A DNA stretch of 23,367 nt. It comes from a virus. How positions within the stretch are numbered: position 1 is the first letter of the stretch; every line of letters begins with the position of its first letter. Under the pieces are notes generated by a model, which was not told the origin of the DNA, made no database searches, and saw only the letters and a list, made by a program, of their open reading frames with translations. Of the stretch, positions 1,872 to 7,929 are shown in pieces. The position numbers were made by a program, and so were the translations under genes. The stretch covers positions 1 to 23,367 of IMG/VR virus record IMGVR_UViG_3300024308_000062. One strand, 5' to 3'.

Positions 1872-2056
1872 GCCGCCTGATGACGATGCTGGCCGTAGCG
1901 CTTGCATCTACCGCAGGACTCGCCATGCGACCGTCGGGCACTAAGCCCGTCCGCCATGCCGCCACCCAAGACAAGCAGGCCGCCGCGACTGCCATCGCTG
2001 CCGCCGAAGCCAAACGCAAGCGCCGCCAAGAGAAGCGCAGGAGCCAACCGCAATGA
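1868..2056 (+). CDS. small protein with hydrophobic N-terminus and basic tail, 62 aa
   Basis: The frame starts with GTG at 1868, overlapping the upstream stop as GTGA, and ends with an ATGA overlap into the ParB-like gene. Residues 1-20 (MSRLMTMLAVALASTAGLAM) are hydrophobic and could be a signal peptide or a membrane anchor. The rest is Ala-, Lys- and Arg-rich (EAKRKRRQEKRRSQPQ). I do not recognise the family. It may be a small anchored or exported protein. It could also be a coupling frame kept open by composition, although the precise overlaps on both sides argue that it is translated. Confidence 0.5.
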   Translation: MSRLMTMLAVALASTAGLAMRPSGTKPVRHAATQDKQAAATAIAAAEAKRKRRQEKRRSQPQ

Positions 2057-3039
2057 CCGAGCCGACCCGTAACAACACCATCGCCAGCATGCTCAGCGCG
2101 AAGATGATCAAGCGCACCGACAAGGGCATGTTCATCGCCCTGGCGAACATCCACATCGACCAGGGGTTCAACAAGCGCCGCGAGTGCCAGCGCCTGGAGG
2201 ACAGCATCGACGAGCTGGTCGAGTTCCTGATCGACCGCGAGGCCGAAGCGCGTGGCGAGAAGAAGCTCAAAGACCTGTCGCAGTACCTGCCGCAGATCGA
2301 GGCCTACCCGCATCCCGAGAGCGGCATCATTGTCGTCGAAGGGCACCGCCGCACCCGCGCGCTGCGCAAGCTCGAAGCCATGGGCTACGAGATACCCATG
2401 GTGCCGTTCAAGCCGTTCGTGGGTACGCCGCTGGAGCGCAAGGCGCGCATCGCCACCAGCAACAGCCAGCTGGAGCTGGAGCCCCTGGACCTGGCCGACC
2501 TGTACATGGACTTTCAGGACAATGACGGGCTGACCCCCGACGAGATCGCCAAGCTGGTGAACAAGACCCGCCAGCATGTCGAGCAGATGCTCAAGCTGGG
2601 GCGCGCCGGTGAGGAGGTGCATGCGCAGATCGAGGCTGGCTTGATCGCCCCAGGCACCGCCGTCGGCATCATCCGCCAGCATGGCGAGAACGCCGCCGCC
2701 GAGATTCAGCGCCAGCACGAGGAGGCCAAGAAGCAGGGCAAGGCCAAGGTCACCAGCTCGACGATCAAGAAGGCCAAGGTGCCGAGCGTGCCGAAGGCGC
2801 TGGCCACCGACATGGCCGCCGCCGCCACCCGCCTGGCGCAGGAGGTGCCAGAGGATGTGCTGGCGCTGGTCGAGCGCTACCGCAACGGCGAGCACGCGCT
2901 CGGTGATCTGCCGGTGTCCGTCAGCATCCGCGCGCTCAACGCGCTGCTGGCCACCACGTCGCACTGGCATGACGTCAAGGCCGAGGCGGAAGCCAAGGTG
3001 ACCAAGGATCTCGACCAGGCGCTGGAGGTGGCAGCGTGA
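2053..3039 (+). CDS. ParB/Spo0J-like nuclease-domain protein, 328 aa
   Basis: The N-terminal half matches the ParB/Srx fold. The key motif is VVEGHRRTRAL at about residues 94-104, equivalent to the ParB GERRxRA nucleotide-binding box. A helix-turn-helix follows at about residues 160-182 (LTPDEIAKLVNKTRQHVEQML), like the parS-reading motif of ParB. A lysine-rich linker and an alpha-helical C-terminus complete it. ParB-family proteins bind DNA and CTP, and phage members occur as partition proteins, nucleases or transcription modulators. No parA partner and no parS-like repeat is visible nearby, so a stand-alone DNA-binding role is more likely than classical partition. It is coupled on both sides (ATGA and GTGA). 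Confidence 0.85.
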   Translation: MTEPTRNNTIASMLSAKMIKRTDKGMFIALANIHIDQGFNKRRECQRLEDSIDELVEFLIDREAEARGEKKLKDLSQYLPQIEAYPHPESGIIVVEGHRRTRALRKLEAMGYEIPMVPFKPFVGTPLERKARIATSNSQLELEPLDLADLYMDFQDNDGLTPDEIAKLVNKTRQHVEQMLKLGRAGEEVHAQIEAGLIAPGTAVGIIRQHGENAAAEIQRQHEEAKKQGKAKVTSSTIKKAKVPSVPKALATDMAAAATRLAQEVPEDVLALVERYRNGEHALGDLPVSVSIRALNALLATTSHWHDVKAEAEAKVTKDLDQALEVAA

Positions 3040-5340: not shown

Positions 5341-7929
5341 ATGGCCACCAAGATTCGAGCCCTAACGGCTGACCCGCGATGGGAAGCCTTTGTAAAGCGA
5401 TACGCCTTTGACGCGGCGCGCTTCGCCATCGAAGTCTGTGGCATGTCGCGGATTACGTGGCAGCAGATGGACTTGTTCGCCAGCGTCTCGCCATTTGGAT
5501 CGCGAACCACGGTTTCATCGGGTCACGGGTGTTTCGCGAAAGGGACCGAGGTCATGCGCGCGGATGGCGCTGTCGTTCCGGTGGAGTCGGTGCGTATAGG
5601 CGACCGCATGATGGGGCCTGACGGAAACAGCTATCGCACGGTGCTGGAGCTGAGGCGTGGTCGGGAAGCCATGTATCGCTTCACCTACGCCGACGGCACC
5701 AGTCATGTATTCAATGAGTCTCACATCCTCTGCCTGGTGGCGACCAACTCGAAAGGAAGGCGCGTTGCTGGCCAGAAAACCACCGTCACCGTGCGCGACT
5801 GGCTGGCCTGGGGAGAAGACAAGAAGCGTTGTCATGCGATCTACCGTAGCGGCGTCGAGCGCTTCGCCAATCAGCCGAAGTCGTTGCCTATCCCGGCGTA
5901 CATCATGGGCGTGTGGCTGGGTGATGGGGATAGTCGAGAGACTACATTCACGACGGCAGATCCTGAGATAGTGGGTGAGCTGGAGAGCTACGCGGATAGC
6001 ATCGCTTGCCGCCTAGTGGATCGTGGTGGCAACTGCGGCAGGGCGACGCGATGGGGCATTACAAGCGGTGGCACGGGGCGATTTGGCAAGAATAGCAACC
6101 CAATGCTTTCGCACCTGCAGATGCTTGGTGTTATCCATAACAAGCACATTCCCGACGCTTATCTGCACGCATCTAAGGCCGACCGCTTGGACCTGCTGGC
6201 GGGTCTGATCGACACGGACGGACATTGCGATAAGGGCAGCACTGGCTACGACATAGTGCAGAAGAATGAGCGCTTGGCGCGACAGATCGCCTGGCTCGCT
6301 CGCTCAGTCGGCTGTCATTCGACCATCAGATCCGTACAGAAAGCCTGCTGCAACAATGGTGTGGTTGGCACCTACTGGCGTGTCACTGTCGGGCGTAACA
6401 CCGACCAGATACCTGCGCGGATCGCGCGCAAGCGCCATCCGCTTGGGCCAAGGCAGCGCGGCAATCTTCATTTCAGCATTCGCTCGTGCGAGCCGCTGGG
6501 GGAGGACGACTATTACGGCTTCGTGCTCGACGGTGATCATCGGTTTCTGGCTGGCGATTTCACCGTGCTGCACAACACCGGCAAGACACGCGCCGCAGCC
6601 GTCACGTCGCTGTGGCACCTGCTCTGCTACGCCGACTCGAACACCTACCTGACCGCGCCCAAGCTCGCCACCCTGCAAGAGGGTATCTGGAAAGAGTTTT
6701 CCGGCCTGAAAGAGGTGATCGAGCAAGGCCCGCACGGCTGGATCGCTGAATACTTCGAGATCAAGGCCAAGAAGGTCTACGTCAAGGGCGCTGGCCTGCG
6801 GTGGTTCATCACCTGCCGTACCGCGCCGCGCGGATCGCCCGAGGGCATGGCCGGTACGCACGGCGCCTACCTGCTGTGGCTGGCGGACGAGGCCTCGGGT
6901 ATCCCTGATGCCAACCTGATGGTCATCGGTGGCGCTCTGACCGATGAGCGCAACCGCTTCGCCATGTTCTCGCAGCCGACGCGCTCGTCGGGGTTCTTCT
7001 ACGACTCGCACCACAAGCTGTCGGTATCCAATGGCGGGCCGTGGAACAATCTGGTCTTCAACTCCGAAGAATCGCCTATCGTCTCGGACAACTTCATCCG
7101 CGACAAGCAGCTGGAGTACGGCGGCGTCGATTCGGTCGAGTACCAGATCAAGGTGCAGGGCCGGTTCCCCGAGCATTCGGACAAGTACCTGCTCAGCCGC
7201 AAGAGCATCGAGAAGCGCGTCGGGGCGCCACGGGTCATCGGCGACGACGAACCCTATGGCAACCTGCTGCTGGTGGACGTCGCGGCCGGCATCTACCGCG
7301 ACAAGACGGTCGCCGTGCATGCGCGTGTCATCGGCCAGGGCGGTCCCGAGTCGCTTGACCCGCGGCGCATGGACGTCATGGATATCCCGATCTTCACCAA
7401 CTCGCACGACTGGACCGACGCGGCGGCGATGGTCGCCAACCAGGCGCGCCAGCTGTCGAACTGCACCGTGCTGGTGGACGTCGGCGGCCAGGGCGTTCAG
7501 TTCGCCAAGCTGCTCGAACGCCTGGAGGTGCCGAACATCGTCAAGGTGAACTGGGGCGTGCTCAACTTCCGCAAGGAGTACCGCGAGCGCTTCCTCAACC
7601 AGCGCGCGCAGTCGAACGTCCACCTCAAGTATGCGGTGGAGCAGAACCGCATCAGCTTCAACGTGCCGACCAATGCGCTGAAAGACATGCTCGACCAGGG
7701 TTCGCGCATCCCGTTCTTCTTCGACGAGAAAGCGCGCTGGCAGCTGCAGAGCAAGGACGACATGAAGAAAGACGGCCTGCCGTCGCCCGACATTTGGGAC
7801 TCCATCGCCTTCGGCTTCCTCGAATCGGCGCAGTACATCCAGACCGACGACTCCGACACCAACGGCAAGGATGAGCGCAAGGCGTCGGCGCGATCCAAGG
7901 CGCTGGCAGCGCTCGGGATGGCGACTTGA
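5341..7929 (+). CDS. terL: terminase large subunit with inserted intein, 862 aa precursor
   Basis: This is the ATPase/nuclease that packages phage DNA into the prohead. Removing the 349-residue intein (residues 64-412) leaves 513 residues, a normal TerL length. The P-loop is split: SGHG (60-63) joins TGKT (413-416) only after splicing. Walker B is LLWLADE (511-517). The RNase H-like nuclease shows three acidic sites: D646 in LLLVDVAAG, D713 in TVLVDVGGQG and D820 in DIWDSIAFGF. The ATG at 5341 is the only start after the in-frame stop at 5320-5322 and has no clear ribosome-binding site. No small terminase is recognised beside it. The TerL assignment is firm; the packaging type cannot be read from the sequence. 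Confidence 0.93.
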   Translation: MATKIRALTADPRWEAFVKRYAFDAARFAIEVCGMSRITWQQMDLFASVSPFGSRTTVSSGHGCFAKGTEVMRADGAVVPVESVRIGDRMMGPDGNSYRTVLELRRGREAMYRFTYADGTSHVFNESHILCLVATNSKGRRVAGQKTTVTVRDWLAWGEDKKRCHAIYRSGVERFANQPKSLPIPAYIMGVWLGDGDSRETTFTTADPEIVGELESYADSIACRLVDRGGNCGRATRWGITSGGTGRFGKNSNPMLSHLQMLGVIHNKHIPDAYLHASKADRLDLLAGLIDTDGHCDKGSTGYDIVQKNERLARQIAWLARSVGCHSTIRSVQKACCNNGVVGTYWRVTVGRNTDQIPARIARKRHPLGPRQRGNLHFSIRSCEPLGEDDYYGFVLDGDHRFLAGDFTVLHNTGKTRAAAVTSLWHLLCYADSNTYLTAPKLATLQEGIWKEFSGLKEVIEQGPHGWIAEYFEIKAKKVYVKGAGLRWFITCRTAPRGSPEGMAGTHGAYLLWLADEASGIPDANLMVIGGALTDERNRFAMFSQPTRSSGFFYDSHHKLSVSNGGPWNNLVFNSEESPIVSDNFIRDKQLEYGGVDSVEYQIKVQGRFPEHSDKYLLSRKSIEKRVGAPRVIGDDEPYGNLLLVDVAAGIYRDKTVAVHARVIGQGGPESLDPRRMDVMDIPIFTNSHDWTDAAAMVANQARQLSNCTVLVDVGGQGVQFAKLLERLEVPNIVKVNWGVLNFRKEYRERFLNQRAQSNVHLKYAVEQNRISFNVPTNALKDMLDQGSRIPFFFDEKARWQLQSKDDMKKDGLPSPDIWDSIAFGFLESAQYIQTDDSDTNGKDERKASARSKALAALGMAT
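5530..6576 (+). other. intein with LAGLIDADG homing endonuclease, 349 aa
   Basis: The insert begins with Cys64 (CFAKGTEVMRADG, block A) and contains NESH (125-128, block B, with Asn in place of the usual Thr). It ends with a block F/G segment YYGFVLDGDHRFLAGD, then FTVLHN, and the extein resumes with Thr413. These are the residues for class 1 splicing: Cys1, penultimate His, terminal Asn, +1 Thr. Two endonuclease motifs lie between: YIMGVWLGDGD (187-197, Asp195) and LLAGLIDTDG (285-294, Asp293). Both acidic residues are kept, so the homing endonuclease may be active. Third-position G/C bias is visibly weaker here than in the flanking exteins, suggesting later arrival. Confidence 0.93.

Follow-up and report, generated by a model that had tools for sequence, protein, structure and literature searches.

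The question raised by this locus is what the 349-residue segment is that divides the Walker A loop of a phage large terminase (TerL), and whether it is still mobile. The window, i.e., the whole stretch of 23,367 nucleotides of IMG/VR record IMGVR_UViG_3300024308_000062 that was analysed, carries the gene (terL) at 5341..7929 on the plus strand as an open frame of 862 aa. In the reading favored here, which is considered highly probable, the segment is a class 1 intein, mobile and with a homing endonuclease that looks intact, inserted in the P-loop of a TerL of the P1 PacB type. The element belongs to a well-known kind, and its relatives are found in related phages at an identical codon boundary.

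Host gene and genomic surroundings

The N-extein (residues 1-63; 5341..5529, plus strand) ends with SGHG, the first half of Walker A; intein-free TerLs run straight on into TGKT. This second half is found in the C-extein (450 aa; 6577..7926, plus strand). By motif reading the C-extein also holds, on the same strand, a Walker B motif (6871-6894), a C-motif (6967-6987) and three acidic nuclease motifs (7264-7290, 7468-7494 and 7780-7803). Walker A, Walker B and the three acidic nuclease positions are invariant in the TerL alignment. The C-extein is 32.6% identical to P1 PacB in a sequence search (E=4e-60), and it is also homologous to TerLs carried by numerous plasmid records (Pseudomonas, Acinetobacter, Burkholderia, Pantoea and Vibrio). 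No terminase family was matched by the window C-extein in a Pfam scan, and a search of the window and L008 proteins with PF03237 gave no match; Terminase_6N was matched by three of 18 TerL homologues. Because the family is divergent and the Pfam models miss the window protein, the name PacB-type TerL rests on the PacB homology and on the fold. Together, that homology and the terminase fold matches of an intein-free homologue bear out the assignment of the host protein to TerL in an earlier note on this DNA.

The fold was judged on the intein-free homologue L010, whose C-extein is 74% identical to that of the window. The L010 structure model (pLDDT 86.9) matches the terminases Sf6 gp2 (E=5.1e-19), D6E, T4 gp17 and P74-26, and a TerL profile search reaches Sf6 gp2 by sequence (E=2.7e-4). 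On the basis of this model and the invariant motifs, the terL product is predicted to consist of an ATPase and an RNase H-like nuclease. Since the P-loop of the model sits between a strand (residues 55-60) and a helix starting at residue 66, an insertion after residue 63 lies within the P-loop.

Neighboring genes of terL in the window encode phage structural proteins and a ParB-like protein, the ParB-like gene lying at 2053-3039, upstream of terL by two to three kb. ParB was found in all four of the closest TerL relatives searched, and its occurrence near terL is in keeping with a plasmid-like prophage. A megablast search of the window against plasmids matched no more than 11% of its length, in a P. 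psychrotolerans plasmid. A scan for promoters and terminators yielded no more candidates than expected by chance.

Features of the intein

The insert covers codons 64-412 (5530..6576, plus strand) from Cys1 to His348-Asn349, and is identified as an intein by Pfam, PDB sequence matches, an AlphaFold2 model and the clade of same-site inteins. Codon reading confirmed the boundaries proposed earlier, between Gly63 and Thr413, as well as the lengths of 349 aa for the insert and 513 aa for the exteins after its removal. The junction codons are TGT for Cys64 (5530-5532), AAC for Asn412 (6574-6576), which follows His411, and ACC for Thr413 (6577-6579). The junctions read VSSGHG/CFAKG...FTVLHN/TGKTR (slashes mark the break points), and Walker A is thus interrupted as SGHG/TGKT. 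Joined exteins read SGHGTGKT, a Walker A of the form S-x4-G-K-T. The P-loop given as G-x-G-H-G in the earlier note has to be corrected, as the junction is preceded by V-S-S-G-H-G. The residues of a class 1 intein are all present as that note had listed them, namely Cys1, the penultimate His348, the terminal Asn349 and Thr+1 as nucleophile.

All intein blocks lie on the plus strand. Block A (CFAKGTEVMRADG, 5530..5568) contains the nucleophile Cys1, which is invariant in 24 relatives. Block B (GTSHVFNESHIL, 5695..5730) has the form N62-x-x-H65, with both residues invariant in the same 24. The first LAGLIDADG motif (block C, AYIMGVWLGDGD, 5896..5931) aligns with AYLLGLWIGDG of PI-SceI and the second (block E, LLAGLIDTDGH, 6193..6225) with LAGLIDSDG; the two motifs had been reported with both acidic residues kept, and each does retain its acidic residue. 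Blocks F and G (DYYGFVLDGDHRFL...FTVLHN) extend over 6508..6576, with Y328, G330, F331 and N349 invariant; block G itself, FTVLHN, was placed at 6559-6576 by motif reading. The Asn for Thr in block B, previously singled out as worth cataloguing, is indeed present, but it is not peculiar to this intein: beyond the relatives aligned, the equivalent position of the Saccharomyces cerevisiae VMA intein is N76 (PMC6805012). It is a trait of the family.

Pfam models matched by the insert, at levels well past what chance would give, are Hom_end_hint (E=4.5e-20), LAGLIDADG_3 (E=9.1e-8) and Hom_end (E=4e-5). A PDB sequence search links it to PI-SceI, both with the single sequence (E=6.6e-21) and with a profile (E=4.2e-46). 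The AlphaFold2 model of the intein (pLDDT 89.4, pTM 0.89) has as its best solved-structure match in Foldseek the PI-SceI miniprecursor (E=2.9e-25, TM-score 0.81), followed by archaeal TliVMA and then by Prp8 inteins. The agreement of the model with PI-SceI and the Prp8 inteins predicts a HINT fold for the insert. The element is classified as a class 1 intein of the PI-SceI (yeast VMA) type, a Hint domain with a nested two-motif LAGLIDADG homing endonuclease.

The same site in related terminases

A comparison with intein-free TerL homologues and a search of TerL alignments for a shared insertion site, both proposed in the earlier note, were run on 75 non-redundant TerLs, the window counted in, and the site was read in each. 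It is empty in 61 of them, which read SGxG-TGKT, SGxG-SGKS or a near variant across it, and the remaining 14 carry an insert at the identical codon boundary. Three of these inteins are full-length (window, L008 and L117); L008, located on an 85-kb IMG/VR record, is 96% identical to the window. Three more, of 241-243 aa (L052, L074, L078), have a degenerate endonuclease with broken LAGLIDADG motifs. The other eight are endonuclease-free mini-inteins of 141-151 aa (L009 from Pseudomonas luteola, L126 and six Acinetobacter-type sequences). In most relatives, the endonuclease is lost.

That the insert can be separated from its host gene is proved most clearly by the near-identical pair L074/L073, with and without it: both flanks show about 95% DNA identity, and the sole difference at the site is exactly 729 bp. 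Empty, full, degenerate and mini states all occur at a single codon boundary, so that every stage of the homing cycle is seen at one site. With the near-identical pair, these states make up a natural series in which the homing cycle of phages can conveniently be tested.

At least eight gains or losses of the intein are required by the TerL tree, six of them forced by well-supported branches. In the intein tree the 14 same-site inteins form a single clade (support 99/98), apart from the P-loop inteins of other proteins.

A same-site mini-intein of 149 aa is also found in the TerL of Acinetobacter phage vB_AbaM_ABMM1 (L001 682-2673). This phage forms plaques at high titre, and the paper describing it built a TerL tree without mention of an intein (PMC10345192). 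The formation of plaques with the mini-intein in place indirectly indicates in vivo splicing by inteins of this clade. The minis of L009 (3566-4000) and L126 (3075-3500) are missing the penultimate His and end in Arg-Asn and Ser-Asn, respectively. The match of L084 spans a long stretch and raised the suspicion of a further TerL insertion at another position, but the L084 TerL frame is uninterrupted.

Movement and selection

Compared with L117, the window intein is 62% identical in the splicing domain and 48% in the endonuclease, and the exteins are 41% identical; compared with L009, the splicing domain is 55% and the extein 76% identical. A vertical Pseudomonas-lineage intein clade was rejected by the AU test (p=0.025); a smaller test was not significant (p=0.14). 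These data point to transfer of the intein between TerL lineages, with moderate support from the trees. The GC content at third codon positions is lower in the intein than in the extein (0.70 vs. 0.86, p=6e-9), which fits a history separate from that of the extein.

Between the window and L008, a single sequence pair, dN/dS is 0.061 for the endonuclease, 0.044 for the whole intein and 0.079 for the C-extein, and the substitution counts in the endonuclease give a Fisher p of ~3e-19. Judged from this one pair, the window endonuclease is under purifying selection. In a search for the homing target, the closest empty P-loop DNA (L053 and L010) matched 32 of 40 bases of the window site, and the true target was not found.

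Comparison with known inteins

With PI-SceI, the S. cerevisiae VMA1 intein, the element shares fold and domain order (22% identity in the structural alignment), Cys1, the terminal His-Asn, the block B Asn and two LAGLIDADG motifs. PI-SceI differs in its length of 454 aa and in its host, a V-ATPase subunit. In yeast, the VMA-a site precedes the P-loop site VMA-b by about 20 residues (PMC8966425).

P-loop inteins of phage terminases are known as a class, as had been stated beforehand: TerL1-a and TerL1-b have been published from mycobacteriophages, the former located between Lys and Thr of Walker A and the latter one residue away (PMC5050341). Five mycobacteriophage TerL inteins spliced, and TerL1-b and TerL1-c cut intein-free alleles (PMC5050341; Kelley et al. 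2016). The window element resembles TerL1-a and TerL1-b in its insertion in the P-loop of a large terminase, but its break lies three residues earlier (G/TGKT), the host is a PacB-type TerL and the intein is of the VMA type. The distinctness of the site thus held up against the mycobacteriophage registers (PMC5050341), and G/TGKT is a register to be added to those described for terminase P-loops. Other phage TerLs are broken at GK/T (L139, L140) or at GKG/S (L133), the latter register being that of mycobacteriophage Redno2. The literature search brought up no paper dealing with inteins of PacB-type terminases.

The register is shared with the TerL of Salmonella phage ST44 (L062, annotated as terminase only), which reads GGRG/C...HN/SGKT and carries a related intein (35% identity); this TerL, however, is of the Terminase_3 family, and its intein is not a member of the PacB-type clade. 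The register G/TGKT also occurs in the DnaB-like helicase L046 and in an unnamed P-loop protein, L050, whose intein adjoins the terminase clade in the tree with weak support. In L050 (4001-4783) the intein is located at G/TGKS, the host part has no Pfam name and the endonuclease looks reduced. P-loop inteins of phage helicases (gp34 of Jerseyvirus vB_SenS-Ent1 and relatives) are 38-41% identical to the window intein and share the block B NxxH, but are inserted at GK/T and in a helicase. L043, a GpA-type terminase by Pfam scan, has a related intein at GK/T; this assignment leaves the PacB-type clade unchanged. Related inteins thus occupy two registers of the same loop across different ATPases. 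A related intein is also present in crAss-like phage cr118_1 (L063 1501-2562), after GGK and before Ser; the host gene is annotated as portal, not as an ATPase.

PGAP labels some plasmid genes of relatives in Acinetobacter and Pseudomonas as Hint proteins. These, WP_076033728 and WP_206422309 among them, agree with the window in gene, codon boundary and intein clade, but are mini-inteins or have a degenerate endonuclease. They are filed as 'homing endonuclease' despite the lost motifs; for annotation, this means that several intein-bearing TerLs stand under that name.

Proposed mechanism and alternative readings

Splicing and DNA cleavage by the window intein are both expected. Cys1 would attack the peptide bond of Gly63, the N-extein would be transferred to Thr413, and Asn349 would cyclise as SGHG is joined to TGKT. 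This would rebuild the Walker A loop and release a packaging ATPase of 513 aa. The nested LAGLIDADG endonuclease would recognise and cut the P-loop DNA of an uninterrupted terL in a relative that is co-infecting or resident, and the intein would be copied in as the cut gene is repaired. The P-loop would suit homing well: its DNA sequence is conserved, and imprecise removal is fatal to the motor.

With 349 residues in the P-loop, the precursor would probably not bind ATP. The window record is a 23-kb fragment; in the 85-kb relative L008, a second, intein-free TerL was searched for and not found. A single TerL was also found in most other intein-bearing records; G005 (L074) adds a partial ATPase-half paralogue, and copies of this kind that were read have a destroyed Walker A. 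Given the split P-loop and the one TerL found in L008, packaging is likely to depend on splicing, which makes the full dependence asserted in the earlier note a sound inference.

The segment is in frame and free of stops, as a native terminase domain would be. A domain of the terminase would not, however, be exactly absent from 61 homologues, which rules this reading out and leaves it practically no probability; L074 and L073 differ by the insert alone, and the segment has the PI-SceI fold and splits the Walker A loop. The state of the endonuclease is a more serious matter. An intein that still splices but whose endonuclease has ceased to cut, as a relic heading for the mini-intein state of its relatives, is a possibility of some weight, albeit an unlikely one: the endonuclease is degenerate or missing in 11 of the 14 same-site inteins, and the best empty target found is imperfect. 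On the other side stand the open frame, both acidic LAGLIDADG residues, a confident domain model and the low dN/dS, which favor the mobile intein with a working endonuclease.

Much more doubtful is the proposal that the intein serves as a post-translational switch, with splicing following the state of infection or lysogeny and timing the packaging motor. The insert splits the P-loop of what is apparently the sole TerL, relatives occur on plasmid records in lysogens, and conditional splicing is documented for other P-loop and helicase inteins (e.g., PMC6195587, PMC7360933). Such a switch is not needed, however, when 61 of the 75 homologues lack the intein, including one that is almost the same as an occupied relative, and ready splicing was seen in all five terminase inteins tested from mycobacteriophages (PMC5050341). 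If the intein served phage-plasmid-like relatives as a post-translational lock on their packaging motor, with splicing tuned to the lytic cycle, this would account for the persistence of endonuclease-free minis at one codon boundary in several TerL lineages; this idea, too, is given little credence.

Half-length terminase paralogues

In several Pseudomonas phage-plasmid relatives, diverged paralogues of the ATPase half of TerL, with Walker A destroyed (L080: AMTGALDYLHDDD), are found near an intact TerL; the window has no half-TerL paralogues. These dead-looking ATPase halves are located upstream of terL in L060 (687; 243 aa), L066 (2351), L073 (2504), L074 (1733) and L080 (2483). Paralogues of the nuclease half are present in some Pseudomonas phage-plasmid relatives (L077 4897, L081 4853, L083 4818 and L066 1); in these the first catalytic Asp is gone (L077 reads VVVAAG). 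The half paralogues look like the two dead halves of a duplicated terminase, retained as open frames.
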